A stretch of 64,000 bases of DNA from Pseudomonadota bacterium (lineage in GTDB: Bacteria; SZUA-182; DTGQ01): the NCBI GenBank assembly GCA_030625085.1, contig DAOURK010000003.1:20198-84197 (forward strand), in the 5' to 3' direction. Of this stretch, positions 4,435-63,861 are shown one piece after another (positions within the stretch are counted from its first letter, which is position 1; every line of letters begins with the position of its first letter). A program made the position numbers and the translations under genes. Under the pieces are notes generated by a model. That model saw only the letters and a program-made list of their open reading frames with translations, did no database searches and was not told the DNA's origin.

Positions 4435-4809
4435 TTATGCCGGGCCCCCCAGACCGGCGGCAAGGTTAAGATTAATGTTGATGATCGCTTGCAGTTTTTC
4501 AGGGGCCGGGTAAGTCATAGCTTCAAAAATACGCCCGTCAATAAATATGCTCAGGTTGAGTATGTCCTCTTTCAGTTTTTGAGGGAGTGGATTATCGGGC
4601 TTTATCAGCTCTGATTGAAAGAGACTCCATATCTTCTGGTTATATTTAAGCGCTTCATCCAATTTTGTATTTCGGTCTTCATCATCCCAGTTGTTTTGGC
4701 AATGCTTTAGTTTTAAAGCCGCCTTGGTGAGAACCGACGACTCTAATTCACGTCCGGTCATGGTAATCTTTTGAGTGGTTTTATATGCTTCTAATTGAGC
4801 TGAGTGCAT
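4435..4809 (-). CDS. flaF: FlaF, flagellar biosynthesis regulator
   Basis: A 124-residue protein that fits the FlaF family in length and pattern: an N-terminal helix with QKIT and a REL.SSVL segment, then an NNWDDE stretch, DEALKYNQKIWSLFQ, DNPLP, LSIFIDGR and the near-terminal PAPEKL..II.IN.NLAAGL motif. In Caulobacter, FlaF is needed for flagellin synthesis and works against FlbT, and flbT is also present in this module at 7861. The start is supported by a strong GGAGGAG box upstream of the ATG. It is encoded on the minus strand, between a flagellin-type gene and the giant glycosyltransferase. FlaF is best known from Alphaproteobacteria, so its presence here is notable. Confidence 0.88.
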   Translation of the reverse strand: MHSAQLEAYKTTQKITMTGRELESSVLTKAALKLKHCQNNWDDEDRNTKLDEALKYNQKIWSLFQSELIKPDNPLPQKLKEDILNLSIFIDGRIFEAMTYPAPEKLQAIININLNLAAGLGGPA

Positions 4810-5144
4810 TTTTAATCTCCTCCGATTAAAAATCTATTGAGAACTTACCCTAACCCGGACAAGCCGGAACCAAAAAGGTTTTAAAATTTTCTATCATAAA
4901 AAACACGAAACTCAGAACTAAGCGCTTAATGAATTATAGACATTCAGATAATTAATTACAAAAATATTCTCTCGAAATCCTCAACTTTAAAAGGATTGAC
5001 CACAATAAAAAATAGTAATTAATTATTTGAAAAACTATAGACTAATGCATTGCTGAATCGTTTAAACGGACCACCCTTCCCTACCCTCCCATCGAGGGAG
5101 GAGGACTGAATAAAAGCCGGTTGCACGGAATTTACAGTAATTGT
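4810..5144. other. Intergenic, flagellin-like gene to flaF
   Basis: AT-rich 335-base gap. Apart from the flaF ribosome-binding site at its left end I see no gene, no convincing terminator and no recognisable promoter. Confidence 0.5.
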
Positions 5145-5990
5145 TTATCTCAATAATGCTGTTAATTGTGACTGCTTTTCCGTTATGCCCCTGATTACTT
5201 CTATAGTCAGGGCCTGTCTCAGTTCCACGCTCTTGATCTGCGCGGCAACCTCGTTCATGTCGGCATTTTTAATCTTTTCCGCTCGATTTCTATGAAAATT
5301 AGCTGTCCTGGTATTATGTGCCTGCCAACGGGCAATGCCGAACGCGTCAAATGCCAGTCCGGCGCGTTTTTGTTCGAGAGTATCCTTTGCCGTCCGAAGA
5401 TTGGCGGCGGCATCGGCGATCTCGGCATCGGTTGGCTCCTCCGGCAGTTCCGGAATATCCAGGCCCTCGGGCCCCGTATGGACTTGTCGGCTATGGATGG
5501 TTTTCCTGACGCCGTTTTCGCCGACCATTACCTCCCAATCGCCTGCGCCGGGAACAACAGAAGGGTCCGCCATGATTTTTTTCGCATCTTCTTCCGGGGG
5601 GGGGATGGTCAACTGGTCGATTTGTTTCCGGAAGGCGCTAAAACCCTTCAATAATTCAGCCCTTTCCGGGCTGTCCGGAGGGAAGGGGGGATAATTTTTT
5701 ATAATCCTGTCCAATTGACTTTTCATCTTTTCAAGATAATCGTCGATTGTGCCCATTGTTGTATCCGCTATCCTGATATTCATGGCAACCATGTTAATAC
5801 CGGAGTTTATAGCCTGGAGACGGTTAAAAGCCGAATGACTGTTGCTCGCCGCTGCCCATGCGGAAGGATTGTCTTTGGATGAGTTGATTTTTTTCCCGGT
5901 GCTCAGCCTTTGGGTCAGTGAATCCATTGTCTTGTTGAGACCTTTAAGATTGAAGAGAGCCTGATTTATCCCAATCTTAATGCTTGGCAT
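5145..5990 (-). CDS. Flagellin-like protein, short form
   Basis: A 281-residue protein with the two conserved ends of bacterial flagellin. The N-terminal D0/D1 helix contains LTQRLSTGKKINSSKDNPSAW, and the C-terminal helix (about 235-281) ends in ELRQALTIEVI and QSQLTALL. The middle is short and proline/acid-rich (PPFPPDSPE, PPPEED, ELPEEPTDAE), unlike the larger flagellin encoded divergently at 6508. I chose the ATG at 5990 over the upstream ATG at 6020 because AAAGGAG lies 7 bases before it. It could be a minor filament subunit, a cap-proximal or junction subunit, or a modified paralogue. The sequence does not decide between these. Confidence 0.8.
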   Translation of the reverse strand: MPSIKIGINQALFNLKGLNKTMDSLTQRLSTGKKINSSKDNPSAWAAASNSHSAFNRLQAINSGINMVAMNIRIADTTMGTIDDYLEKMKSQLDRIIKNYPPFPPDSPERAELLKGFSAFRKQIDQLTIPPPEEDAKKIMADPSVVPGAGDWEVMVGENGVRKTIHSRQVHTGPEGLDIPELPEEPTDAEIADAAANLRTAKDTLEQKRAGLAFDAFGIARWQAHNTRTANFHRNRAEKIKNADMNEVAAQIKSVELRQALTIEVIRGITEKQSQLTALLR

Positions 5991-6337
5991 ATCTTCTCCT
6001 TTCATGAAGAGTATACACATGAAGACATAACATTATTATCTATCTTCACACCCTAATTTCATGCCAACCAAAGCAACACTTATATATATTATCGGAATAT
6101 TTAAAAATATCTTTAAGGTATTTTTAAAAATGCAGATATGCTGCAAGATTATCCATAATCTTTTGGGGTCGAAATAGGTATATATGCGGCTCCAGGTGGC
6201 TTGAGGCACAATTTTCGGGGCGCCCCGAATTTTTTTTTACGATTTAGTGAATTTTGACTGAAGTTTTAAAAGGATTGTCCGATAGAAAAAGCAGAGGCTG
6301 AAAAAATCAAGGTTAAAGGCTGAAAAATTAAAATCCG

Positions 6338-6478
6338 GAAGGAGGTGAAAAAAATAAGCACCTGATAAAAAAAAGTGATGAAAAAAGATTGAAAAAACCG
6401 CCGATGAAATCGGCCGAGCACAAAATCGGTAAAGTACAAAAACATTACCGGTAAGAATTACCGGTAAGAATTACCGAA
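6338..6478 (+). promoter_or_regulatory. Structured, repeat-bearing leader upstream of flagellin
   Basis: The region before the flagellin start holds several small structures. AGGTG at about 6343 can pair with CACCT at about 6360. CCGAT and ATCGG (6401-6413) can form a hairpin with a 3-base loop. A perfect 13-base tandem repeat, TTACCGGTAAGAA, lies at 6445-6457 and 6458-6470 and is followed by a third partial unit at 6471. Each unit contains the 10-base palindrome TTACCGGTAA. In Caulobacter, FlbT acts on the flagellin mRNA leader, so this is a candidate FlbT target. That link is inference, and I could not place a sigma-28 or sigma-54 promoter with confidence. Confidence 0.45.
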
Positions 6479-6507
6479 AACAAAATTCCTAGAAAAGGAG
6501 AATCAGC

Positions 6508-7617
6508 ATGGCTAACAACATCACATTATCCACCGGAATGCGCTCCAACTTAATGAGCCTTCAGTCGACATTAGATCTTCTTAACCAAACACAGAATCGC
6601 CTGTCAACAGGGTTAAAAGTCAATACCGCTCTTGATGATCCGACCGCCTACTTTACAGCCCTGACACTTACAACACGTGCCAGTAACATTAATTCACTCA
6701 AGGACGAAATGGGCCAGGCTATTCAAACAATAAAAGCCGCGGACATAGGCATCACAGCAATTAGCGACTTAGTCGATCAGGCAAAAGGTATTGCGAAGAA
6801 AGCGCAGGCAGTTGTGATCGTCAACGACAAACAGTACGTTACTTTAAACACCGTCGCGGCAGATGATGTAATTACCATCGGGGGCGCAATTCTTACGGCA
6901 GTTGCTGGGACTGCGACTGCCACCCAATTCAGCATCGACGGTACCGATGCGGAGGACGCGGCAGCCTTAGCGGCCGCAATAAACAGTGCAAGTATGTCAG
7001 TAGGGGGTGGGGCCGTAACCGCCGATAATGAGGGTGTCAAGGTATACATCGAGGCTGCGGGCGTCGATTTAACAACCGGCAGTATTGTAGCCGCTGGTAC
7101 AATGGTCGAATCAGATATAATATCTGTCGCCAATGAAATGGCCACCCTTCAAGGCTCTTACAACGAGATGTTGGACCAGATTGATCATATGGTAATAGAC
7201 GCGGGCTACAAGGGTAAAAACCTTCTCAACAGTGACAATCTTGAGGTAAACTTCGAAGGGGATCGTAAGATTACTATTGAGGGGTTCTCGGCAAGGGTTG
7301 CCGGTTTAGAGCTCACAGACGCTGACTGGACCTCGACCGCCGATCAAGACGGCAATCTCTCTGAGATCGAAGATGCTCTTACCACGCTGGGGGGCGAGGC
7401 ATCAAAGATGGCCTCGAATCTGGGTATCATCACCACACGTGAAAAATTTTCAACTAACATAGTAAACCTCCTTACCGAAGGCGCCGATAAACTTACACTC
7501 GCCGACATGAACGAAGAAGGAGCGAACATGTTGGCGCTCCAAACCAAACAGGCCCTTGCGGCAACAGCGCTGAGCATGTCTGCTCAGGCGGCCCAGTCGG
7601 TGTTGAGGTTGTTCTGA
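6508..7617 (+). CDS. Flagellin, main filament subunit
   Basis: A 369-residue flagellin. The N-terminal D0/D1 region carries QNRLSTGLKVNTALDDPTAY and runs to about residue 105. A variable central domain rich in Ala, Gly, Thr and Asp covers about 106-210. The C-terminal D1/D0 region (about 290-369) has TTREKFSTNIVNLLTEGADKL and ends in SMSAQAAQSVLRLF. There is no signal peptide, as expected for export by the flagellar type III system. The ATG is preceded by AAAAGGAG at good spacing. The gene is divergent from the short flagellin-like gene, followed by an intrinsic terminator, and flanked by flbT and flaF. The GC-rich codon choice differs from the AT-rich housekeeping genes elsewhere in the window. 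Confidence 0.93.
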   Translation: MANNITLSTGMRSNLMSLQSTLDLLNQTQNRLSTGLKVNTALDDPTAYFTALTLTTRASNINSLKDEMGQAIQTIKAADIGITAISDLVDQAKGIAKKAQAVVIVNDKQYVTLNTVAADDVITIGGAILTAVAGTATATQFSIDGTDAEDAAALAAAINSASMSVGGGAVTADNEGVKVYIEAAGVDLTTGSIVAAGTMVESDIISVANEMATLQGSYNEMLDQIDHMVIDAGYKGKNLLNSDNLEVNFEGDRKITIEGFSARVAGLELTDADWTSTADQDGNLSEIEDALTTLGGEASKMASNLGIITTREKFSTNIVNLLTEGADKLTLADMNEEGANMLALQTKQALAATALSMSAQAAQSVLRLF

Positions 7618-7640
7618 TAAACAAGATCAAGTAATGGATC

Positions 7641-7670
7641 AAAATGGGGGGGCTTGCCCCCCCATTTTTT
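7641..7670 (+). terminator. Intrinsic terminator after flagellin
   Basis: A long perfect stem: AAAATGGGGGGGC at 7641-7653 pairs with GCCCCCCCATTTT at 7656-7668, followed by a T run. It lies 24 bases after the flagellin stop and separates flagellin from flbT. Confidence 0.9.
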
Positions 7671-7860
7671 CCAACTATCCAACTAACAAGCACCGGCCCC
7701 ATGAATATAAATAACAGACGGATAAAACCCCCGATACAGCACATTTCAGACGATGGAGGCAAGCAAAAGCGACTCCTCTTATCCGCAATTCCAATTCTTC
7801 AAATAAAAGGTGTGTAAAGGTATGATTAATCAAAAGAAGACAAAAAGAGCATAAGAGAAA

Positions 7861-8280
7861 ATGTCATTGAAAATATCATTAAAACCGCACGAAAGATTAA
7901 TTATCGGCGGCGCTGTAATTGTAAATGCAAAGACCGGGTGTGATCTGATCGTTGAAAATAATGTCCCCATACTCCGCGAAAAAGATATCATGGCCGTAAA
8001 GGGGGCCGATTCACCATGCCGGAGGATTTATTTTGTCATACAGCTTATGTATGTGGATGGTAAAAATCTGACTGAACATCATAAAACCTACTGGGAATTG
8101 GTAAAGGACGTGATGGGTGCGGCCCCGAGCACCCGCGGATTAATTATTGAGATCAGCGAATATGTCCTGCACAACAAGTATTATCAGGCGCTGAAACTAA
8201 CCCGCGGATTGATCGATTACGAGCAGGAGGCCGTCAGTAAGGCCGGCAAGGCGGCGGCAAGATCGCCGGGCTCTGTTTAA
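7861..8280 (+). CDS. flbT: FlbT, flagellin mRNA regulator
   Basis: A 139-residue protein matching the FlbT family: SLKISLKPHERLIIGGAVI at the start, then LIVENNVPILREKDIM, a central RRIYFVIQLMY segment, and a C-terminal helical part with EISEYVLHNKYYQALKLTRGLI. FlbT in Caulobacter represses flagellin translation and destabilises the message through its 5' leader. It lies directly downstream of the terminated flagellin gene. The ribosome-binding site is weak, so low expression is likely. Its 3' end overlaps the opposite-strand glycosyltransferase gene by 47 bases. Confidence 0.88.
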   Translation: MSLKISLKPHERLIIGGAVIVNAKTGCDLIVENNVPILREKDIMAVKGADSPCRRIYFVIQLMYVDGKNLTEHHKTYWELVKDVMGAAPSTRGLIIEISEYVLHNKYYQALKLTRGLIDYEQEAVSKAGKAAARSPGSV

Positions 8281-11077
8281 GGCATTCATCCAGGAGCCTT
8301 CCGGTCTCATCATTTCCTTTCCCGCTTTCGATAAGAGCTTCAAGCGCCCGTACGGCAGGACCTGTTTTCCCGAGAGCAACCAACCTTTTGCAGAGTATGT
8401 GCAGGGTATCAGCAATGATGAAGCCTTTTTTGAAGAGCGCCTTATAGAATATAACCGCTTTGTCTTTTTGTCCAGCGATGCCGTATGCCGCGGCAAGGAG
8501 CAATGATGCGGGAGGATATTCGACGGCCCGCTCAAGCAGAGGCTCAAGTTCTGAAATGACTTTCTTATAATCTCCGACGAGAAGCTCGCTGTAGGTATAA
8601 TTCAGCAGGGCCTCCTTCATGGTCGGATCAATCTCCATCGCTCTTTTCGAGGCAAGCAGGGCCTTTTCGTATTGTTCAGTCTGCAGACAGCAATATCCCA
8701 GGTCGAAGAAAAATCTCGCGGCAGGTTTCTCTCCGGTAAGATCTATCGCCCTTTTCCATAACGCAATGGCCTCCTCAAACCTTTTAAGCTCCTGTGCCTG
8801 GATTGCAAGCTCAGAAAGTGACTTGACGTCATCCGGGCGCTCTTTGAGCTTCTTTCTGCCCAGAAGATAGTATCTTTCTCCCTTTGAAATGAGTTTGCCG
8901 GTGCTCATTTTGCCGTAGTGGTGGACAATAATCCGGCACTGTTTGATCTTGATGCCGGCCGTGATTATCGATGACTCAACAGTTTCATGCACATGCCCTT
9001 CAAACCGTATGCGGCCGTCATTGGGGAAAAGCCTTACCTTCACACTGGGGAACCAGCCCGTGCCGGTCTCCTCAAGCGGGTATTCGCCTTTATTGGGGAC
9101 CCATCCCAACGACTTGATACCGCGGACATAATTCCTCGTGGCGATGTTATAGGCGGCGGGGTTGGAACACTTTTTCAGGATAATGCTTTTCAGCAGAGGA
9201 TAGTCCCGGGAAGATATCACCTCATCAGCATCGAGGACGAATATCCAGTCCCCTGAAGCCTTGCTGAGAGAGAAGTTGCGGGCCCCGGAAAAATCATCCG
9301 TCCAGGGAAGCCCGAATACCCCGGCGCCGAAGGCCGCGGCAATATCTCTTGTTCTGTCCGCAGAGCCGGTATCAACCACTATCATCTCATCGGCCACGGG
9401 TTGAGCGCTCATGAGGCATTTTGCTATATGGTTTTCTTCATTCTTTACGATCATACAGACAGACAGGGTCCCGGACTTTTTTGATTTGTCTGTGCCCTCC
9501 CTGGCGCCTATTCTTTTCCTGATCTCAAGCGCGGCGGCCAGCATGCCGTCGTCTGTGCCGAAGGAAATCATGGCCCGTTCGATCTCCTGCATGGCGATTT
9601 CATTTTTGCCCTGCCGTATGAGGATATCTATCAAAAGAAAGGCGATTCTTTTATTCAAGGGATAAGATGCCTTTGCCTCTCGGAACCTTTGTTCGGCCCT
9701 TTCGAGGTCACCCACTGAGGTGATTGCGGAGTGATAGATGGATACAATGTCCGCGATCGTGGGGGACAGGATAAATCCTTTTTCCAGCAGGTTTACGGCA
9801 TCTTCCCTGTCCCCTTGATCCCATTTCAGGATGCCGAGATTTGTATATGGTTCTCCATAACCGGGATCGCATTTGACTGCCTTTCTAAAATGATCGTCTG
9901 CGCTGTTTTTGTCCCCCTTTTTATAGGCCAATATCCCTTTTAGATTGAGGGCCGATGCGCAACCCGCATTTAACGATAGAGCTTGATCGGCATGATCGCC
10001 CGCTTCAGCATAAAGCCCCATGCCTTCTTTGCCATAACCTGCCAACGCATGCCGCCTCGCCTCTTTCTTTCCCTCTTCGGGCATGGACTTCAGGGCATCC
10101 ATGGCATCATTGAAGCGTTTAGAGTCGATCAACATCTCGGCCAGACGATAGTAAATTGCCTTATCATCCGGGGAGTATTTTATGCCGTCGATAATCGTGG
10201 GAATAGCCTGATCAATCTGCTGCCGCTGGTAAAATTTCTCGGCCGACTCAAGTTTGTTTAAGACGGCAAGTTTTTTCCCGTGTGGACTTGAAACATCTAT
10301 GTTGCGCCATTTTTCATCAAAAATTTTCTTGTCCTTCCCTATAGATGAATTGCAATGTATTTTGTTTCCGATAAAACTTACGCTGCCGTAATGATGGATA
10401 AATACATCCCCGGCAATAAAGTTCCTGTATCCCTCCAAGGTCGCTCTGAGACAGAAATCATCGTCCTCGAAGTTGCCCGAGCCAAAACTCTCGTCAAGCA
10501 AGCCGATTTTTTCCGCCAGTTCACGCTTAAAAAGCATGCAAAATCCGGCTATTTTCCTGGAAGGTATACGACGGTATCGATTTATTTCTCTGAATGTGCG
10601 AGCATATTCATCCAGGAGGTTCATTGAGGCATAATTGGCGTTTGCTACTTTCTGTGGTCCGCTGATGTTATTAGTCATGGGGCCAACAATGCCGGCATCA
10701 GAAGTATTGCTCAAACATTCAAGCATTCCTGAGAGCCATCCCTCTGAAACAACCACGTTATTATTCAAAAGGAGGATGTACTCACCTGATGATTTAAGTA
10801 TCCCTTGGTTGCAACCCTTAGCAAAACCAAGGTTCTTCGTGTTCTCAATTAATCGGTAATTAGAATTTTCCTTGATAATCCGCCTCAACCACTTGACCGT
10901 TCCATCGGTAGACCCATTGTCTACAAACACAATTTGATGCGGTTCGGGGGTGTGCCTTCTAATGCTTTTAATGCATTCCTTCGTATATTTAAGCTGGTTG
11001 AAGGTGAGAATTGCCATGGAGACAAGCCCGTTGACAGGTCCCTTTTCCTCAAATAAAACTTCAGGCATTGCTCCCAT
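8234..11077 (-). CDS. GT2-TPR-GT2 glycosyltransferase
   Basis: A 947-residue protein. The N-terminal GT-A family 2 domain (about 20-290) has VFVDNGSTDGT, LLLNNNV and an EDDDFCLRA motif. TPR-type helical repeats cover about 300-520. A second family 2 domain (about 535-760) has CMIVKNEE, VVDTGSADRT and LDADE, and more TPR repeats run to the C-terminus. TPR-linked GT2 proteins commonly glycosylate proteins or build surface glycans. The first domain closely resembles the GT2 part of the giant protein at the left edge (GIVGP..NN.SGPQ in both), so they are paralogous. A TTG at 11119 would extend the frame, but GGAG sits 9 bases before the ATG at 11077, so I start there. A flagellin-modifying role is inferred from context. 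Confidence 0.85.
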   Translation of the reverse strand: MGAMPEVLFEEKGPVNGLVSMAILTFNQLKYTKECIKSIRRHTPEPHQIVFVDNGSTDGTVKWLRRIIKENSNYRLIENTKNLGFAKGCNQGILKSSGEYILLLNNNVVVSEGWLSGMLECLSNTSDAGIVGPMTNNISGPQKVANANYASMNLLDEYARTFREINRYRRIPSRKIAGFCMLFKRELAEKIGLLDESFGSGNFEDDDFCLRATLEGYRNFIAGDVFIHHYGSVSFIGNKIHCNSSIGKDKKIFDEKWRNIDVSSPHGKKLAVLNKLESAEKFYQRQQIDQAIPTIIDGIKYSPDDKAIYYRLAEMLIDSKRFNDAMDALKSMPEEGKKEARRHALAGYGKEGMGLYAEAGDHADQALSLNAGCASALNLKGILAYKKGDKNSADDHFRKAVKCDPGYGEPYTNLGILKWDQGDREDAVNLLEKGFILSPTIADIVSIYHSAITSVGDLERAEQRFREAKASYPLNKRIAFLLIDILIRQGKNEIAMQEIERAMISFGTDDGMLAAALEIRKRIGAREGTDKSKKSGTLSVCMIVKNEENHIAKCLMSAQPVADEMIVVDTGSADRTRDIAAAFGAGVFGLPWTDDFSGARNFSLSKASGDWIFVLDADEVISSRDYPLLKSIILKKCSNPAAYNIATRNYVRGIKSLGWVPNKGEYPLEETGTGWFPSVKVRLFPNDGRIRFEGHVHETVESSIITAGIKIKQCRIIVHHYGKMSTGKLISKGERYYLLGRKKLKERPDDVKSLSELAIQAQELKRFEEAIALWKRAIDLTGEKPAARFFFDLGYCCLQTEQYEKALLASKRAMEIDPTMKEALLNYTYSELLVGDYKKVISELEPLLERAVEYPPASLLLAAAYGIAGQKDKAVIFYKALFKKGFIIADTLHILCKRLVALGKTGPAVRALEALIESGKGNDETGRLLDECLKQSPAILPPPCRPY

Positions 11078-11730
11078 TATTTTTTTCTCCGTGGCGCCTC
11101 CGGCGCAGCCGATTTTCAATAGTGGTTTTGCCGGGGGCCCATTTTTTTCAATACAATATTATACGAACTCAGATGCATTAGTTATCTCCTTGTATAATAC
11201 TATTTCAGAGATAATGAACTATCATAGAAAAAAAATGCTTGAGGGAAATTCAAGTTGGATTACACTGGTTTTCTTATCGGTATTACAATGAAATACTTCG
11301 GTGTTTAGGTATTAAACACCTTCCCATTCTCTTCCTACTAAACGCTCATGAAAAGCTTTTTTTACCCCCGAGGATGAAAAATTTAACTTTTTCAGTAAAG
11401 TCTATTTTTCAAAATGCGTTTTCATGGTAAAAAAAAGGATAAAAATAAATAATGCTATTTATATTTTTCTTAATGTTGATTGATTTGTATAGTTCATAGG
11501 GAGAAAAATGAAGATAAAAGCAAAAAAAAGATTTTGCCAACAGCGCCGCCCAAATGGCGTTTTCCAGACAAAAACGAAGAAAGAACCAAATATTGCCGAA
11601 AAAGTGTATGAATCCTTTTTTTGTTTCTTTTCTGACTAAACTATCTTAATTTTAACCAAGGGCATTCATTTTCATATTTTAAAATAGGTAATAAAGACCC
11701 AAAATCATCCCCGAGAAGAGGTAAATTTAT
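11078..11730. other. Intergenic, GT2-TPR-GT2 to HD-GYP gene
   Basis: About 650 bases of AT-rich DNA at the boundary between the GC-richer flagellin module and the AT-rich chromosome. It holds a small inverted repeat (GTGTTTAGGTATTAAACAC at 11301-11319) and the first copy of a dispersed repeat (11338-11433). No gene is convincing. Confidence 0.5.
11338..11433. repeat. Dispersed repeat family D, copy 1
   Basis: About 95 bases with a second diverged copy at 21379-21478. Shared blocks in the same order: AAACGCTCAT, CCCCCGAGGATGAAAAA, TTTTTCAGTAAAGT and TTTTCATGGTAAAAA. Neither copy encodes a protein. Both lie next to the 5' end of a gene. Confidence 0.7.
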
Positions 11731-12753
11731 ATGATAAGAAAGGAAGTTGTCAAGGTTTTGCCAAATGAGACCTTTCAGGAATCGGAAATTTTCCCCCTTT
11801 TATATTCCATCATCAATTCCAAGATAGATACCATATATAATCTCGATAATTTTTTACAACTTATTGTAGATGCCGGGGCTAAAATTGTTTCGGCCCGAAA
11901 TTCTTCATTAGTAATTTTTAATGAAAACATAGATTCTTTTCTTTCCGAGTCAACAAAACAGAAAAAAGAAGAAGAATTTTCTCCTTTTCGTAATGTGCTT
12001 AGGTCGGAATCTCATATAACTATTCCTTTAAAACTTCGAGAAGTGAAAGATCCCTTTGGCTATCTGCGGGTTGAGGGCAAATTGGATCAGGAGGATCAAC
12101 AGAAGTTCGATTCCAAGGATTTATTTTTACTTCTTCTTTTAAGTCGCCAGGCTACTCTGAAAATCGAAAATGATTTTTTGTATAAAAGTGTGCATCGAAA
12201 CTTGACCAATACTTTGGGTATTATGGTTAATATGTTGGAATCCAGAAATAAGTATATACATTCTCACTCACAAAGGGTTACTGAGTTAGCTCTGGACATT
12301 GCTGAAAAACTTTCTCTTGATCAAAAAGAGAGGGATGCCTTGTCTTTAGCCGGCTTATTGCATGATATCGGAAAAATCGGGATTCCCGATTCCATTTTGG
12401 ATAAAAAGGATCCTTTGAGTATGGATGAGTTTGATGTGATTAAGAAACATCCCGTGGTTGGGGAAGATATGATTCGACCTTTGGAATTTTTAACCCTGGA
12501 AAAATCGATTATTCGTCACCACCATGAAAGGCTTGACGGAAGCGGATATCCCGATGGATTGCAAAGCGAAGAAATACCAATGTGCACCAAAATTATTGCC
12601 GTGGCTGACTGTTTTGATGCTATGACCTCTAATCGACCTTACCGAAAAGCTAAATCATCTTTGGACAGCATAAAAGAATTAGAGTCTTTGGCAGATGAAA
12701 AATATGACAAAGATGTTGTATATGTATTAAAAAAGAGTTTTCTTTCCCATTAG
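11731..12753 (+). CDS. HD-GYP domain cyclic-di-GMP phosphodiesterase
   Basis: A 340-residue protein. An N-terminal GAF-like segment (about 20-145) precedes a full HD-GYP domain (about 160-330). HD is at 211-212 in LLHDIGKIGIPD, and HHHERLDGSGYP spans 263-274, so the metal ligands and the GYP signature are intact. HD-GYP proteins hydrolyse cyclic-di-GMP. There is no transmembrane segment, so it is cytoplasmic. GAGG precedes the ATG. The next gene, 12 bases on, is a PilZ-type protein, so the two form a likely signalling pair controlling motility or surface attachment. Confidence 0.88.
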   Translation: MIRKEVVKVLPNETFQESEIFPLLYSIINSKIDTIYNLDNFLQLIVDAGAKIVSARNSSLVIFNENIDSFLSESTKQKKEEEFSPFRNVLRSESHITIPLKLREVKDPFGYLRVEGKLDQEDQQKFDSKDLFLLLLLSRQATLKIENDFLYKSVHRNLTNTLGIMVNMLESRNKYIHSHSQRVTELALDIAEKLSLDQKERDALSLAGLLHDIGKIGIPDSILDKKDPLSMDEFDVIKKHPVVGEDMIRPLEFLTLEKSIIRHHHERLDGSGYPDGLQSEEIPMCTKIIAVADCFDAMTSNRPYRKAKSSLDSIKELESLADEKYDKDVVYVLKKSFLSH

Positions 12754-12765
12754 GGGTAAAGATAG

Positions 12766-13398
12766 ATGCGCGAAGATAAAGAGAGGAGAAATTTTTTGCC
12801 GCCTAAGTCATCCTCCGAAAGAAGAAAATATTATAGAATCACAGACACCACGGCTATTGAGTATCAAATTATGTCCGCCAAAGAGTATGAAGCGGAAAGA
12901 AAGGTTTTTCGGGATCAGGTGAGCGGCATACGAAATCTTAAGAACAAATATGCCAATTTCGTGCCCAATGAGTTGGATGTGGAAAATTTTAAAGGTGGAG
13001 ACGTTGATACTCTTCGCGGATTGTTGAAACTTATCATTAATATTAATGAAAAAATAGATCTCATAATATCATATATAGAGAAAAAAGAGGATTCGAGTAT
13101 ATATCAAAAAAATCCGGAAAGAATTACCTTGAGTGCAGGGGGAATCAGTTTTTTTATTTCTAAACCTATTCCTGCCGGCACCTATCTAAAGCTGAGGATG
13201 CTTTTACCCCAAAGCCCAAAAATTTTGATGACAACTTTGGGCAAGGTTGTCCGGATAACACCTCAAGATGCAGAGGGAATAAAAATGTTTGAGGTGGGAG
13301 TTGACTTTTTGGATATTCATGAAGATGATCAGGAAGCAATCATAAAATATATCTTTATGCGACAGCGCGATATGTTGCGAAAGCAAGGTGAACGATAA
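12766..13398 (+). CDS. PilZ-domain cyclic-di-GMP receptor
   Basis: A 210-residue protein. RRKYYR at 19-24 fits the RxxxR arm of a PilZ domain, and the second motif LSAGGISF (S123 to G126) lies about 100 residues later, after an inserted helical stretch (about 40-110). The usual Asp/Asn before the Ser motif is Thr here, so binding should be tested. The C-terminal beta barrel (about 115-195) is typical. It is cotranscribed with the upstream HD-GYP gene (12-base gap). PilZ proteins bind cyclic-di-GMP and change partner activity, often in motility or exopolysaccharide secretion. Confidence 0.78.
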   Translation: MREDKERRNFLPPKSSSERRKYYRITDTTAIEYQIMSAKEYEAERKVFRDQVSGIRNLKNKYANFVPNELDVENFKGGDVDTLRGLLKLIININEKIDLIISYIEKKEDSSIYQKNPERITLSAGGISFFISKPIPAGTYLKLRMLLPQSPKILMTTLGKVVRITPQDAEGIKMFEVGVDFLDIHEDDQEAIIKYIFMRQRDMLRKQGER

Positions 13399-13442
13399 GC
13401 CGGCAGCACATAAAGATGAATAACTATATCTGCTGAGTTTTG

Positions 13443-13796
13443 TTATTTCTTGATAATCTGATTGTTTTTATCTACGTTTATTTTAATAGGGGAAAAATTT
13501 TGACATTCTTTATCCTCTATAAGAGCAAAGGCGGCAATGATAATTAAATCGCCGGGTTCGGCCAATCTTGCTGCAGCCCCATAAAGAACAATCTTTCCTG
13601 AGTTCGGGGCCTCTTGAATGGTATAGGTTTCAAATCGTTTTGCATTATTGATATTGTAAATTTGGACCTGTTCCCCCTCTAGAATATTAGCTTCTTTGAG
13701 AATAGTTATATCCACCCCAATACTTCCCTCATAGTGCAGGCAGGTATCTGTAACCGTGGCTCGGTGAATCTTTGATGTTAACATCATTCTTTGCAT
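13443..13796 (-). CDS. panD: Aspartate 1-decarboxylase
   Basis: A 117-residue protein. PanD makes beta-alanine from aspartate for pantothenate synthesis and self-cleaves at a Gly-Ser bond to form its pyruvoyl cofactor. That bond is visible in HYEGSIG near residue 24. Other family marks are MLTSKIHRATVT, NNAKRFETY and LYGAAARL. I start at the ATG at 13796 (MQRMM) because AAGGAG lies at the right spacing. The GTG three codons earlier is less likely. It follows panC on the minus strand by 24 bases, in a panB-panC-panD group. Confidence 0.95.
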   Translation of the reverse strand: MQRMMLTSKIHRATVTDTCLHYEGSIGVDITILKEANILEGEQVQIYNINNAKRFETYTIQEAPNSGKIVLYGAAARLAEPGDLIIIAAFALIEDKECQNFSPIKINVDKNNQIIKK

Positions 13797-13820
13797 AGTA
13801 TTCACTCCTTAGAGGCAAAT

Positions 13821-58373: not shown

Positions 58374-58445
58374 GCCGGCGTAGCTCAGGGGTAGAGCAGC
58401 TGATTCGTAATCAGCAGGTCGCGGGTTCAAATCCCATCGCCGGCT
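58374..58445 (+). tRNA. tRNA-Thr (anticodon CGU)
   Basis: Cloverleaf of 72 bases without CCA. The acceptor arm GCCGGCG pairs with CGCCGGC, discriminator T at 58445. The anticodon arm CTGAT/ATCAG encloses TTCGTAA, giving CGT, which reads ACG (Thr). The T arm has GTTCAAAT, with one mismatched pair. A tyrosine integrase lies just downstream, so this tRNA's 3' end is the likely attachment site. Confidence 0.92.
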
Positions 58446-58458
58446 CTTTTAATTTCAG

Positions 58459-58490
58459 AGGGTTACAGATGATGCTGTGACCCTTTCGGT
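58459..58490 (+). terminator. Hairpin after tRNA-Thr
   Basis: AGGGTTACAG at 58459-58468 pairs, with one wobble, with CTGTGACCCT at 58475-58484; loop ATGATG; followed by TTCGGTTTTT. It covers the integrase stop codon and may end tRNA transcription. Confidence 0.5.
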
Positions 58491-59176
58491 TTTTCTGTGA
58501 GTGAATCTGTGAGTGGATTTTTCTTTTCTTCACCCTCAAATTCAGCTTCAAAAATTTCCATGGCCTCTCGTTCTGCTTCACCAATACTATGCAGATAAAT
58601 TTCAGTAGTGGTCCTTTTTTCATGCCCGAGAATGCGCTGGATAGATCCAATGGGAACATTTCTTCTTTCCATGATAGAAGCCCCGGCATGACGAAGCGCA
58701 TGAAACCGGAAATATTTGACACCTGCTTTATGGCATAAGCCCCGCATAACCTTTTTTCGGTCCTGGTATGGCCCCTCATGTTTTTCCCCTGACTTACTGC
58801 TCGTATAAGTATGCCAGAATACCCAGGGCTTAGTTGTATTCCGCTGTGAATATCTATAAAAAAGCACGCTATAGAGTCTTCTGGTCATGGGAATTTTTCT
58901 TGGGGTCAAATGTCCGCCCTTTTTCTTTCGCGTAAAAAGCACCACATACCGTTCATCAAAATTCACATCATCCCAGATAAGCCGGTTTATTTCACTCATC
59001 CTGCCCATACTTTCTTTGATTGTCCATAGATAATCCTGAGTATCAGGAACTGCCGCCACAATCACCTTAAGAACATCTTCTTTTGAAGGAATATATTTTA
59101 TTTTTTTCCCCTCCATCCCTTCCCTTCGCGGGCAAGACGGTCCTTGTCTTCCACATCGCCGAGAATGTTCGGTCAC
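58463..59176 (-). pseudogene. Tyrosine site-specific recombinase, 5'-truncated
   Basis: The catalytic domain of a phage or island integrase. Catalytic residues all appear to be present: Arg in GRMSEINRL, Lys in TRKKKGG, HALRH (His, Arg, His), LGH, and Tyr in TTTEIYLH. The N-terminal arm-binding and SAM-like domains are missing: recognisable sequence begins around GKKIKYIPSKEDV (about 59110), where it collides head to head with the AlbA_2-type gene. The first 20 or so residues of the frame derive from the other gene's antisense strand. It points at tRNA-Thr and stops 18 bases from it. Probably inactive without its DNA-arm domain. Confidence 0.8.
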
Positions 59177-60369
59177 GCAAACCGGTTTACCTTGACGGCG
59201 ATATTCGCCGCACCTTTTTACGCAAAGGCGGTGGTGACTACAGAGCCCAAATGCAAGACATAGAGCGGATGCTCCGGGACGCTACCGCTGATCGTTGGGA
59301 TGGCCAGGTATTTGAGAGAGTTTCTCTTGATGAGGCGTTTAACAAGAGTAGCCTTACCTGGTATCGTAACCGATTTCACCAGTATAACAGCGGTTTTAAT
59401 CCTGAACAAGCTCATCACGATTTCCTGTATCAATGGGGCTATTTGGTGAAGGATGGCCAACAATTTAAACCCACGCATGCAGCCATCATGTTCTTTGGTT
59501 CATCTCTTGCCATACACCAGTTGATTCCTCGTCCGACCCTCGATGTGCAGTTTTTGCCTTACGGATCAAAAGATGATCTGCCGGAAGTGCGATGGATAGA
59601 CCGGTATGTGTCGGAAGATAATATCATCACTACCTGGCAACAACTTGTGGCTAAGTACCTTTTTTTCATGCCCAAACCCTTCAGCGGCATTGATCCCCAT
59701 ACTCTGGCCAGGCAAGATACGCCACCCGGCTATCGCGTCTTCAGTGAAGCTGCTGTCAACCTGCTTATTCATCAGGATTATGGTGATCATTCCCGCAAAG
59801 CAGTCATCAAGTTTTATCAGGACGGTATACAGCTCTGGAATCCGGGAGATGTTTTTGGCGATGATAGCCGCCTTCTAGAGCCGGGGGAAAAGGAGGTACG
59901 TAATCCTGCCATTGTCGCAGCTATGCGCCGTATCATCCTTTGCGAGCAAGCGGGAACCGGTTTCAGAATGATGCTTAACCAATGGAAAAAATTGGGACAT
60001 CCCGAACCGAAATATACCAATGACCGGGGCTGGAAAGCCTTTGAGTTTTTTCTTCCCGGACTGGAAGCTGACATGGACGGCACTTCCAGTCTGATGCAAG
60101 CTATGTTTGCGAAGGAAGCATCAATTGAACGACCAGGGGTAGAGTCAGGGGTAGAGTCGGAAATGGCACAGAAGATTCTTCGTTTGCTTGAGAAAGAAGA
60201 TCTTGGGAAAAAGGAACTCGCCCAAAAAATTGGAAAAAACAAGCAAAGTCGCTACCTGAATGATCTTGTGCGGCGGTTGTTGGATAAAGGCCTAATCGAA
60301 TATACCATCCCGGAAAAACCACAAAGTCGTCTTCAGAAGTACCGCTTAGCGGAAAAAGGCCATGGCTGA
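59083..60369 (+). pseudogene. AlbA_2-domain transcriptional regulator-like gene, 5'-truncated
   Basis: Recognisable from about 59122 (GKTVLVFHI). It matches the tail of the N-terminal AlbA_2 nucleic-acid-binding domain (GDIRRTFLRKGGGD, IERMLRDA), then the RecG-related ATP-binding C-terminal region with NLLIHQDYGDHS, IQLWNPGD, RNPAIVAAMRRI and EQAGTGFRMM, and a winged-helix end (LLEKEDLGKKELAQKIG, LLDKGLIEY). The normal N-terminal part (roughly 100 residues) is missing. The ATG at 59083 lies within integrase sequence. Often found in mobile islands. It may still make a shortened protein. Confidence 0.75.
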
Positions 60370-60439
60370 GAATGAAGACATCCAGCTAAACTGACATTTG
60401 ATAAGATGAATAGAATTGTTATAAAAATTTAAAAATTAC

Positions 60440-62542
60440 TCAACTCATTTCCATATTTGAATGAGTAACCTTCATTTTCAGTAGATCTTTAACCTGTGTA
60501 TCAACTATATATCTATTTTTTTCCATTTGAAGAATTACCTCATCCGGCAAACATTCATGGAATTTATAATGCTTAATCTCTTTTTCAAAAATGAGATGTA
60601 TAATTTCTGTAGAAATATCATGAACTTTCGTGCGAATCAGTTTTTTGATATCACTGTTTGATAAAGACTTATCCAACTTTATGGATAAATTATCACCAAA
60701 AGCTCTTATGCCTAAGATCTTATAAATTAATGCAGAGAGATTAATATTGATGAGTTTCCCTGCGAAAGTCCACCACGTATAGTTGTTTTTACTATGGCAA
60801 ATGGTCGTCGAGTCACCCCCAACCCAATTAAATATCAAGCGAAGATTGGTTATTTTTTCAGTGGCTCTCCTTGACCATTCATTCATGGCTTCCTGCCCAA
60901 CTAATAGTAATTTAACAGATTGACAAAGTTCTGTTGACCAAAAAGGCCCGGCTCCGAGCCAACGCGATTTCCCATGAAGTGTCGTAGGTTCTACATGGGC
61001 CATCTTTTTATCTCTATCGATATGTCTTACTTTCCATGCACGTCCGCCAAGAAGAAGCACTTGTTCTACATTACCAGCGAAAGTGATTTCATCCACATAG
61101 CCGATTACATTTTTGCCATATCTAACCATGAATAATGGAGGGCTTGTAAAGATTGAGCATAGATTCATAAAATTTCGAAAACCATAAAGCTTTTCACCTA
61201 AGGGACCGAACCAAATAATACCCTGGTCTTCTGTGATGATCCCCGCAGCAAGCATGTAATTGAAAATGCGCCTAACTGTTTCATCCGGCATTTTTTCAAA
61301 AGCCGGCACTCGGCCGACCCATTTTTGCCAGGTTTTTAAGCCAATGCCTTTTTCCTGTAATAAAAGGCTTAAAATTTGTTGCACAAAAACATGGTAAGGC
61401 GCCGGTGGAGGGGTGACAGGTTCCACATAACCGCTAGACCATAAGTGAATGAGTCCAGCCGCCTGCAGCAATGCCTGTTCTGAAGTTGCGAGAAATATAC
61501 AGTTTTTTTTAATCCCTTCTCGCCTGCCGGTTCGGCCGAGCCGCTGGAGAAAAGAAGAGACTGTTGCCGGTGCATCGATTTGAATTACCCTGTCCAGATC
61601 ACCAACATCAATACCTAATTCTAAAGCGCTAGTGGCTACAATGACACAGTCTCTTTCATTACTAAAAGCATGTTCAGCTTGCCTGCGCTCATTGACGCTC
61701 AATGAGCTGTGAGATACATAGGTTTTTATTCCATACCCTCGCAGCTTATGTGCTAATTGTTCTACACGGCTTCTGCTGTCACAGAAAACCAACCGCTTCT
61801 CTCCACGATGAAGGCGTGCAATGACAATGGCTGCATTTTCCAAGTTTCCGACAAAATCTAGTTTGACATCAACATCAGCACATTTTTCCGGGGCTGGCAA
61901 TAAGATAGCCCTCTCGCCTATGCAATGTTTGGAGAGCCAATCTACAATAGAGTCGGGATTTCCCACAGTTGCTGATAGACCTATTCGCTGAATTTCTCGG
62001 TTGGCAATTTTTGTGAGCCTTTCAAGAATTGCAAGCAAATGCCAACCGCGGTCATCACCGGCAAGGGCATGGATTTCATCAACAACAACCGCATGAAGAT
62101 TTTCAAAGAACACCATATGGTCGCTTCTAGTTGATATTAATATGGCCTCTACAGATTCGGGTGTAGTCAGCAGACAATCCGGCGGATCAGCCAATATGGC
62201 CTTTCGATCAGCATCTTTAGTATCGCCATGCCATACTTCTGACCTTCGCCCTAATAACGTGGCGTATCCTCTTACGCGGACATTTAGGTTATTCAATAAG
62301 GCTTTGAGCGGACATATATAGAGAAGGCTCAAACCAGACCAATTTTCAAAAAGCATGCGGGAAAATAAGGGGAATAATGCAGCTTCGGTTTTTCCGCCGG
62401 CAGTTGGCGCCAACATGACCATATGTTTGCCGGAAAGGATGGCCTTGATACTTTGTTCTTGCAAAGGCTTCAAGTTGCGCCAGTTTAATGAATTTACAAT
62501 ATGGTGCTGGAGTGCGGGGTGAAGTAAATCAAAGGCCTTCAT
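60440..62542 (-). CDS. brxHI: BREX Lhr-like helicase BrxHI
   Basis: A 700-residue SF2 helicase. Walker A LAPTAGGKT (44-52), DEIH box (155-158), GLSATVGNP (188-196), SALELGIDVGDLD and QRLGRTGRR cover the conserved motifs. The long C-terminal part (about 370-700) fits the Lhr-like family used in BREX. It is translationally coupled to brxD (4-base overlap). In type 2 BREX, brxD and brxHI end the operon, which matches their place here on the minus strand. It is closest to the island's left side. Confidence 0.87.
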   Translation of the reverse strand: MKAFDLLHPALQHHIVNSLNWRNLKPLQEQSIKAILSGKHMVMLAPTAGGKTEAALFPLFSRMLFENWSGLSLLYICPLKALLNNLNVRVRGYATLLGRRSEVWHGDTKDADRKAILADPPDCLLTTPESVEAILISTRSDHMVFFENLHAVVVDEIHALAGDDRGWHLLAILERLTKIANREIQRIGLSATVGNPDSIVDWLSKHCIGERAILLPAPEKCADVDVKLDFVGNLENAAIVIARLHRGEKRLVFCDSRSRVEQLAHKLRGYGIKTYVSHSSLSVNERRQAEHAFSNERDCVIVATSALELGIDVGDLDRVIQIDAPATVSSFLQRLGRTGRREGIKKNCIFLATSEQALLQAAGLIHLWSSGYVEPVTPPPAPYHVFVQQILSLLLQEKGIGLKTWQKWVGRVPAFEKMPDETVRRIFNYMLAAGIITEDQGIIWFGPLGEKLYGFRNFMNLCSIFTSPPLFMVRYGKNVIGYVDEITFAGNVEQVLLLGGRAWKVRHIDRDKKMAHVEPTTLHGKSRWLGAGPFWSTELCQSVKLLLVGQEAMNEWSRRATEKITNLRLIFNWVGGDSTTICHSKNNYTWWTFAGKLININLSALIYKILGIRAFGDNLSIKLDKSLSNSDIKKLIRTKVHDISTEIIHLIFEKEIKHYKFHECLPDEVILQMEKNRYIVDTQVKDLLKMKVTHSNMEMS

Positions 62543-63861
62543 AAATCAAGCTCAATTGTGTCTACATCTTTGGCGGCATTTGCATTACGTTCAATTTTGG
62601 ACATTTCCGAATCAACCAATGTTAAGGCATAATCTATTCGAGGATCAAAATCCGGGAATTGATCAATCCGGTCAAGCACGTCACCCACTAATTTTTTTAA
62701 AAAAAGGCGGGGAGTAATGCCGATTTTCCCACCTAGATTGCCGGTGATTGCCTTGGCCAATGATGCGATATATCTGTCATCAGCCTTCATTTTAATTTCT
62801 TCGGCATTGTTTGAATAGGCTGCATAAATGTCACGAATTCTGATCCCTAACTGCACCAATGTTTTGAGGTCAAAGCCTTTCATTCGGATTTGGATCGCCC
62901 TCGGATTGTCAAACCGTATGTCTGTTGAAAAATCCGTATAGAGGCGTTGAGATAGGGGCGCTAATCTTTGTACCCCCTGAGGGCCGTCAAAAAACATGGA
63001 GGTGCCGGTAATCAAAAGATACAACCCGGGGAATCGGCCCGCATCAATTTCGTCTATTAACTGTCTGAGGGAATTAAGGCCCTTATCACGGACATCGCTG
63101 CGCACGCGCTGCAAAGTTTCGACTTCATCCATTACCAAAACTAAACCCGGATGACCGGAATCCTTTAAGATCAATAATAATCCTTGCAGAAAATTTAAGG
63201 CTGTAAAGTGGTCCACTTCTCCTTTAATGCCTGCCTGTCTTTTGATTTCTGCTGTTACGTGAGGTTGGCCGCTTAACCAGGCCATGAGACCTTCGGCTAA
63301 AACAAAATCATTTTCAAGCGTTGCCTTCCGATATCTACGCAAGACCCCGGCAAAAGCTGGTGCATGTCTTGTAATCGATGCCAATCTTTGCTCCATCAAA
63401 TGATTTGTCTTCTCTGCCAGTTGAATTTCATCATGCCCTTCAACAGCGTTTCCGGCCAGAATGTCTTCCTCTAAAGTAAAAAACCATGAATCGACAATGT
63501 TGCGGAAGGCACCGGCTGAAACACCGCTGATCGCTAAACGTTCCATTGATCTTCTGTATATTGTTTCAAGTTTGTGTAATGGCGTATCCGTTTCAGAGAT
63601 CTGGACCTCAGATGTCGAAAACCCTTGCTTTTTGGCACGTTCCTGGAGCCAACGTGAAAAAAAAGTCTTGCCACTTCCATATTCACCCCTAACAGCCTTA
63701 AAGACACTTCCCCCTTTGGCAACTAAATCTAGTTCACTGTCAATCGCATCGATGAAAGGTCCCATCCCCATAGCGAATGCATCTAATCCCTTTTGGGGCA
63801 CAGTTCCTCTCCTCAAGGCGTCAATTATCTCTCGTTGTTTTTGCTGACTGATTTTATCCAT
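62539..63861 (-). CDS. brxD: BREX ATP-binding protein BrxD (DUF2791)
   Basis: A 440-residue P-loop ATPase. Walker A GEYGSGKT is at 59-66 and Walker B VLVMDEVE at 241-248, with the family start QKQREIIDALRRGTVPQKGL and GSVFKAVRGEYG. It matches the DUF2791/BrxD family of BREX phage-defence systems. It starts at the ATG at 63861 and overlaps brxHI. The other core BREX genes (pglZ, pglX methyltransferase, pglW/pglY) would be expected upstream, beyond the right edge. Pairs of brxD and brxHI also occur in other defence contexts, so the full type is undecided. Confidence 0.87.
   Translation of the reverse strand: MDKISQQKQREIIDALRRGTVPQKGLDAFAMGMGPFIDAIDSELDLVAKGGSVFKAVRGEYGSGKTFFSRWLQERAKKQGFSTSEVQISETDTPLHKLETIYRRSMERLAISGVSAGAFRNIVDSWFFTLEEDILAGNAVEGHDEIQLAEKTNHLMEQRLASITRHAPAFAGVLRRYRKATLENDFVLAEGLMAWLSGQPHVTAEIKRQAGIKGEVDHFTALNFLQGLLLILKDSGHPGLVLVMDEVETLQRVRSDVRDKGLNSLRQLIDEIDAGRFPGLYLLITGTSMFFDGPQGVQRLAPLSQRLYTDFSTDIRFDNPRAIQIRMKGFDLKTLVQLGIRIRDIYAAYSNNAEEIKMKADDRYIASLAKAITGNLGGKIGITPRLFLKKLVGDVLDRIDQFPDFDPRIDYALTLVDSEMSKIERNANAAKDVDTIELDL

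Follow-up and report, generated by a model that had tools for sequence, protein, structure and literature searches.

A FlbT/FlaF flagellin module outside the Alphaproteobacteria with a twin-hairpin RNA element as a candidate FlbT target

Introduction

In the CsrA–FliW system, partner switching ties the translation of flagellin to its export. The present study concerns a flagellin gene cassette with flbT and flaF, a candidate for another such coupling, which lies in a 64,000-nt stretch (hereafter, the window) of contig DAOURK010000003.1 from a metagenome-assembled genome (MAG) of a small, non-alphaproteobacterial GTDB phylum. In Caulobacter, FlbT acts at the flagellin 5′ untranslated region (5′UTR) (PMC3930126; PMC4347634) and interacts with the regulatory flagellin FljJ, not with the structural flagellins; FlaF is a flagellin-binding protein required for flagellin secretion, and FlaF-dependent secretion of FljJ lifts the repression (PMC7591256). 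A review gives the range of FlbT as Rhizobiales and Caulobacter and lists FlbT–mRNA recognition as unresolved (PMC4347634). In addition, RF01736 (flg-Rhizobiales) has been described as a candidate cis-regulatory structured RNA in Rhizobiales (PMC2864571).

The window contains a complete non-alphaproteobacterial FlbT/FlaF filament module, consisting of a structural flagellin, a second flagellin-family protein named FlaN here, FlbT, FlaF and GT2–TPR glycosyltransferases. Its genes and their co-occurrence, an RNA element with covariation and specificity, the exclusion of FliW, sigma-28-like promoters and the presence of unlike cassettes at the same syntenic position are shown here. We consider it fairly probable that FlbT and FlaN repress flagellin translation through the hairpins of this RNA element and that FlaF-dependent export of FlaN lifts the repression. 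We also lean, by a little, towards a broader view in which the pairing of FlbT with an AGAA two-hairpin RNA, combined with an export sensor of the YPPF type described below, is an ancient and horizontally mobile alternative to FliW–CsrA across phyla, with Caulobacter FlbT–FljJ–FlaF as one branch. The FlbT/FlaF flagellin brake, known from one bacterial class, appears here as a mobile module of several other phyla, and no fewer than two mechanisms, each excluding the other, couple the translation of flagellin to its export in bacteria.

FlbT and FlaF are common to the Caulobacter system and the window, as are structural flagellins, a divergent candidate for the regulatory flagellin and, as predicted for the window, control at the 5′UTR; a TPR-containing glycosyltransferase is also found in both, that of Caulobacter being FlmG (PMC7591256). 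The glycosyltransferase is of the GT2 type in the window, whereas that of Caulobacter is GT-B, and the promoters are sigma-28-like in the window cassette, whereas Caulobacter uses RpoN and no FliA (PMC3930126). Unlike FljJ, FlaN and its relatives are not full-length flagellins. Gene order also differs: flbT precedes flaF in most window-type relatives, and no DUF1217 gene was seen with window-type cassettes, whereas alphaproteobacterial loci have the order flaF–flbT, usually followed by a DUF1217 gene, an arrangement that the window does not show.

Results and Discussion

Genes and promoters of the cassette

A preliminary description of the window had proposed that flaF and flbT bracket two flagellin genes. 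The bracketing was confirmed by Pfam matches over the curated cut-offs at all four genes, far above chance. Both inner genes belong to the flagellin family; the minus-strand one, flaN, is no ordinary flagellin gene, as its product has no Flagellin_C match and a middle region of the YPPF type. The features of the cassette are as follows.

4435..4809, minus strand: flaF, 124 aa, flagellin secretion chaperone/regulator (PF07309, E 2.5e-32)
5145..5990, minus strand: flaN (name used here), about 281 aa, longest open reading frame (ORF) to 6020; Flagellin_N only (E 4e-11)
6090..6115, minus strand: sigma-28-like promoter of flaN, TAAA-N16-CCGATA, 10/10
6259..6284, plus strand: sigma-28-like promoter of the structural flagellin gene, 9/10
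6448..6507, plus strand: twin-hairpin 5′UTR element, candidate FlbT target (covariance model R1, covariation, folding z −2.5)
6508..7617, plus strand: structural flagellin gene, 369 aa (Flagellin_N, E 2.3e-9; Flagellin_C, E 5.7e-5)
7861..8280, plus strand: flbT, 139 aa, flagellin translation regulator (PF07378, E 1.2e-40)

FlaF exceeded both the Pfam cut-off (PF07309, 111.7 bits vs. 23.6) and the NCBIfam cut-off (NF009435, 126.4 vs. 91), and FlbT exceeded that of Pfam PF07378 (138.8 bits vs. 27). Each of the two genes is single-copy in the MAG of the window (G000; 4.94 Mb, 95.6% complete). The AlphaFold model of FlbT (predicted local distance difference test score, pLDDT, 90) consists of N-terminal strands and four helices; it had no match in the PDB, so that no RNA-binding fold can be named. 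The nearest solved structures to the structural flagellin are the Caulobacter flagellins FljM and FljK. Sigma-28-like promoters scoring at least 9/10 were found for 21 of 32 cassette flagellins, compared with approximately 4.5% of shuffles. Sigma-54 promoters were also considered and rejected, showing no excess over shuffles.

The twin-hairpin RNA element

Two hairpins lie within the last 60 nt upstream of the flagellin start codon. Hairpin 1 presents an AGAA loop approximately 35–55 nt upstream of the start, with a stem that varies in sequence while its pairing is kept; in the window, it is CCGGUAAGAAUUACCGG at 6448–6464, and another copy overlaps it. Hairpin 2 (CCU-AGAAA-AGG or a variant of it) masks the Shine-Dalgarno sequence, which in the window is contained in the mini-hairpin UUCCUAGAAAAGGAG at 6486–6500. 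Of the 32 cassette flagellins, 94% had an AGAA-loop hairpin with 4 bp or more, compared with 3.3% of shuffles and 1.6% of the upstream regions of 248 other ORFs. Across 30 sequences, 88.5% of cells were paired (76% when shuffled) and double changes occurred in seven of nine pairs, giving 31 double-change cells against 10.4 when shuffled, a count reached by none of 500 shuffles. Sliding the pairing partners destroyed this signal. Covariation counts can be inflated by relatedness among the sequences; more weight is therefore given to the slide control and to the test of specificity than to the counts themselves.

The window element, a training row of covariance model R1, scored 54 bits (E 4.6e-12) against it. 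Over 938 kb, R1 gave 33 matches at E < 1e-4, all at the starts of cassette flagellins, including three outside the training set (L027, L132 and L133). The match at L027 (2845–3051) puts the true flagellin start near 3049 and not at the longest-ORF start, indicating that the start was mis-called there. No R1 match was found in 315 kb of FliW loci of Desulfobacterota, and the AGAA hairpin was absent at all 22 flagellin-family genes near FliW, which are mostly FlgL-like with few true flagellins. Nor did the hairpin precede the flagellins of G001 and G002, two genomes of sister genera that lack FlbT. The twin-hairpin element was on no YPPF or flaN gene, which suits a sensor rather than a target.

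In the Alphaproteobacteria, sampled as 11 flagellins beside flaF–flbT from plasmid records only, the AGAA hairpin was present in 11/11 cases and reached at least 4 bp in ten, compared with 3% of shuffles and, at that length, none of 27 control genes. Two of these examples fold into the same two-hairpin layout. R1 failed to reach most alphaproteobacterial elements; the common part is the AGAA hairpin, which was scored directly. Five alphaproteobacterial plasmid loci (L088, L090, L092, L093 and L097) had flbT with no adjacent flaF seen and no AGAA hairpin of at least 4 bp; FlbT is therefore not always accompanied by the element. In its stead, the L088 and L092 flagellins have a CCACAAGG hairpin, which may reflect another FlbT/RNA specificity.

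Rfam gave no match at the gathering threshold in the window or in 12 loci. RF01736 did not match the window element at E up to 1, a search in which the models themselves were not compared, and it may be a relative of the element. The indication that FlbT acts on the flagellin 5′UTR in these bacteria is indirect, coming from a conserved 5′UTR element that tracks FlbT, and it makes the twin-hairpin element a strong candidate for the FlbT RNA target. The comparative evidence names a short RNA target, defined to its loop, as well as a candidate co-repressor.

FlaN and the YPPF family

FlaN is 65% identical to a protein on contig C286 of a relative (G003), which likewise adjoins flaF; the start common to the two proteins and a good ribosome site support a flaN start near 5990. 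Neither Pfam nor PHROG has a separate family for the YPPF domain. The alignment comprises 29 members, in the core set of which a PP and two arginines are invariant, and YPPF proteins occurred in most of the FlbT cassettes found. Flagellin_N was matched in the window FlaN and the L017 protein. In the window FlaN and the C286 protein, YPPF lies inside recognisable flagellin N-terminal and residual C-terminal regions; the N-terminal part is kept in L030, and the Geobacter types are reduced to the YPPF core in the alignment. The AlphaFold model of FlaN (pLDDT 69.6) had flagellin as its best PDB match, with the Caulobacter FljK filament first (E 1.5e-6). Owing to the Flagellin_N matches, the intermediate forms and the FljK fold match, we read the YPPF proteins as putative degenerate flagellins.

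Like FljJ, FlaN is a flagellin homologue that is distinct from the structural flagellin and encoded with flbT and flaF. It does not have the full-length two-domain form and is therefore an FljJ analogue at most, not a member of that type. FlaN is plausibly a candidate regulatory flagellin in this analogous sense. No YPPF protein was found by tblastn in alphaproteobacterial plasmids, and the YPPF hidden Markov model gave nothing past weak flagellin cross-matches in 12 alphaproteobacterial loci.

An assignment of FlaN to FlgL was also considered. NCBIfam FlgL was its best match at 38.8 bits, compared with a cut-off of 127.2, and the assignment was rejected because a separate FlgL-like protein is encoded in G003 in addition to FlaN. 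G003 also has two FlaF genes (C180 and C286; L016 and L017), one in a standard cassette and the other paired with a full-length flaN resembling that of the window.

Proposed mechanism and alternative explanations

In the proposed mechanism, the flagellin mRNA would be transcribed from the sigma-28 promoter, and FlbT would bind the two AGAA hairpins that immediately precede the start codon. Bound FlbT would stabilise the hairpin over the Shine-Dalgarno sequence and thereby block translation. FlaN, whose gene lacks the element and would escape repression through it, could act as a co-repressor or export reporter while cytoplasmic. Once the hook-basal body opened the export gate, FlaF would escort FlaN and flagellin out; with FlaN exported, FlbT would lose its partner and translation would start. 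Such a module would replace the FliW (CsrA) system and could move between phyla as a unit. We infer three of its elements, namely, the binding of FlbT to the hairpins, the co-repressor role of FlaN and the chaperone role of FlaF in this host.

Several points weigh against this mechanism. Binding and regulation would rest on comparative sequence evidence; FlbT has been reported as an activator in Brucella (PMC4347634); and the AGAA hairpin could be read by a factor other than FlbT. FlbT scored below both NCBIfam equivalog cut-offs (123.9 vs. 153 and 102.9 vs. 125), which restricts the claim to Pfam-family membership and to a protein that works like FlbT, not an equivalog. FlaN has no Flagellin_C match, most of its YPPF relatives lack both flagellin ends, and it is not an FljJ ortholog. 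Furthermore, a working flagellum is in question, with no match to FlhA or to the Flg_bb_rod rod/hook proteins in G000. An explanation that dispenses with FlbT would take the two hairpins as acting constitutively on the translation or stability of flagellin mRNAs that are highly expressed. The position of the element over the Shine-Dalgarno sequence, and the inferred nature of FlbT binding, would suit this, but its absence from the flagellin-family genes near FliW and from the FlbT-less sister-genus flagellins, together with the AGAA hairpin in every sampled alphaproteobacterial flaF–flbT flagellin, makes a constitutive role unlikely. A different possibility is that the flagellum was lost and that the cassette is a decaying leftover without present function. 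Three relatives from the same GTDB family each have one FlhA and five rod/hook matches, and a separate FlgL also had no match in G000, as expected for a relic. On the other hand, the five cassette ORFs are intact, the promoters score 9–10/10 and the RNA element is well preserved. The hook-basal-body genes of the relatives occur in one or two clusters (in G003, flgK follows flgI/flgJ) with flanks that are not conserved; for this reason, a true loss and a gap in the MAG would look alike, and one or two missing regions in a genome of this completeness would explain the absence. The intact ORFs, the promoters and the RNA element favour a missing region over loss, and we regard the relic explanation as rather doubtful, if a little less so than a constitutive element.

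Distribution and exclusion of FliW

When 84,980 genomes were scanned using the FlbT of G000 and G003 as the query, 35 loci were detected, none labelled alphaproteobacterial. They carried the labels Desulfobacterota or “Deltaproteobacteria” and Nitrospirota, apart from one “Betaproteobacteria” locus and two given only as Proteobacteria/Pseudomonadota, G003 itself being one of these two; a distant FlbT would be missed because both peptide patterns were derived from the query. The label of L034 is uncertain, given that the two rpoB matches in one Geobacteraceae-labelled MAG (G017; L061 and L085) are split, one grouping with Nitrospirota and the other on an extreme branch that may be a reading-frame artefact. 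A wider use of FlbT control, one of two explanations offered in the preliminary description, was thus substantiated by cassettes in Desulfobacterota and Nitrospirota, in a small number of other Pseudomonadota (one or more with a Betaproteobacteria label) and in two of nine genomes of the host phylum. Among 399 Pseudomonadota, the YPPF profile gave three strong matches, all in full cassettes. The usual order elsewhere is flagellin – YPPF protein – flbT – flaF, frequently with large GT2/TPR glycosyltransferases on the flanks, and a GT/TPR cluster was present in 32 loci. The window cassette has these parts in another arrangement: flaN lies on the same strand as flaF, the flagellin gene shares the opposite strand with flbT, and the gene for the glycosyltransferase is convergent with flbT.

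The FlbT cassette and FliW are mutually exclusive in Desulfobacterota. In an even sample of 297 genomes from this phylum, FlbT was found in 19 and FliW in 139, and none of the 19 had both (hypergeometric p 3.6e-6, uncorrected for relatedness). A direct check found FliW in none of 26 genomes, i.e., 22 reached via the FlbT loci of other phyla plus G000–G003, of which 24 carry FlbT. In this respect, the cassette differs from the CsrA–FliW system.

Host placement and origin of the cassette

In an RpoB tree, with G000 represented by its sequence from contig C208, G000, G003, G001 and G004 were joined with full support and then joined with other members of the host phylum; G000 and G003 were sisters, and the clade adjoined Nitrospirota among the sampled rows. 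The tree included no alphaproteobacterial RpoB, and the non-alphaproteobacterial placement is that of the separate GTDB phylum of the host. The Pseudomonadota label of G003 was supported by neither the GTDB grouping nor RpoB. Flagellin-family genes occurred in four of the nine host-phylum genomes sampled, all from one family, and FlbT together with FlaF only in G000 and G003. The preliminary impression that the other genes of this genome are not alphaproteobacterial was therefore sound: the host has its own RpoB clade, the markers are non-alphaproteobacterial, and the neighbours of the cassette are collinear with those of genera in the same GTDB family. FlbT is present in the host phylum without being common there.

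The following features lie beyond the structural flagellin gene.

7644..7665, plus strand: terminator-like hairpin (GGGGGGG/CCCCCCC, then a T run) directly after the flagellin stop, read from the sequence
8234..11119, minus strand: GT2–TPR–GT2 glycosyltransferase (Pfam GT2 and TPR), convergent with flbT with an overlap of approximately 47 bp
11731..13805, strand not assigned: HD-GYP, PilZ and panD, backbone genes beyond the cassette junction, 55%–67% identical to and collinear with those of G001 (all three genes) and G002 (HD-GYP and PilZ)

HD-GYP and PilZ share 55%–65% identity with their collinear counterparts in G001 and G002, and panD and panC share 67%–69% identity with those of G001. At the same position beside HD-GYP and PilZ (in G001 also panD and panC), G001 and G002 have a different cassette, consisting of a long conventional flagellin, a FliS-like gene (a call read from sequence and place) and a Maf-type glycosyltransferase. 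It thus differs in flagellin type, chaperone and glycosyltransferase, and has no FlbT, FlaF or AGAA element. The GT2–TPR–GT2 protein of the window, a probable flagellin glycosyltransferase, shares 61% identity over 926 aa with a protein beside the FlbT cassette of the Nitrospirota locus L024. The flagellin, FlbT and the glycosyltransferase match Nitrospirota or “Deltaproteobacteria” loci, whereas the adjacent genes match sister genera. Different cassettes beside the same HD-GYP/PilZ genes indicate that the filament module was exchanged at this site, in either direction. A filament module of flagellin, chaperone, translational brake and glycosyltransferase is thus exchangeable at one chromosomal site.

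The transfer of a whole cassette, the second explanation in the preliminary description, agrees with the cross-phylum matches and with the differing cassette of the sister genera; its direction into the host lineage is the part that was not proven. The window FlbT is 71% identical to that of Nitrospirota, 61% to that of G003 and at most 39% to the sampled plasmid-borne alphaproteobacterial FlbT. In the FlbT tree, it nests among non-alphaproteobacterial rows, and alphaproteobacterial monophyly was not rejected. A recent horizontal transfer of an alphaproteobacterial flagellin–flaF–flbT cassette would agree with the Caulobacter flagellins being the best solved relatives of the window flagellin and with the literature found, which describes FlbT and FlaF in Alphaproteobacteria only. 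Nevertheless, the FlbT identities, the nesting of the window FlbT and the alphaproteobacterial gene order, often followed by DUF1217 and without YPPF, make such a source very improbable, and the donor is, judging from the sequences, no close relative of the sampled alphaproteobacteria. Vertical inheritance, with an FlbT cassette ancestral to the family and replaced by the flagellin–FliS cassette in G001/G002, is a more serious possibility, which we place somewhat below an even chance. It would suit the RpoB sisterhood of G000 and G003, both of which have FlbT cassettes, and the sisterhood of these cassettes was not rejected in the approximately unbiased (AU) test (p 0.134). In contrast, the window fell into one group (99/92) with Nitrospirota L024 and “delta” L025 in the concatenated cassette tree, which placed G003 elsewhere, with a log-likelihood difference of 15.6, and the window FlbT is closer to Nitrospirota than to G003. 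Since the AU test retains vertical sisterhood with G003, a transfer specifically into the host lineage is probable, though short of proven.

Neighbouring islands

In locus L015 (1519–8686; contig C95 of G000, approximately 11–19 kb left of the window start), there is a nucleotide-sugar island with NeuB-cupin and acetolactate-synthase-like genes, and a similar island adjoins the FlbT cassette in the betaproteobacterial locus L054. This suggests that nonulosonic-acid flagellin glycosylation travels with the cassette. At the other end of the window, positions 58374–63861 hold a tRNA, an integrase-like gene and then BrxHI (60440–62542) and BrxD (62539–63861) at the contig end, forming a tRNA-adjacent BREX defence island.

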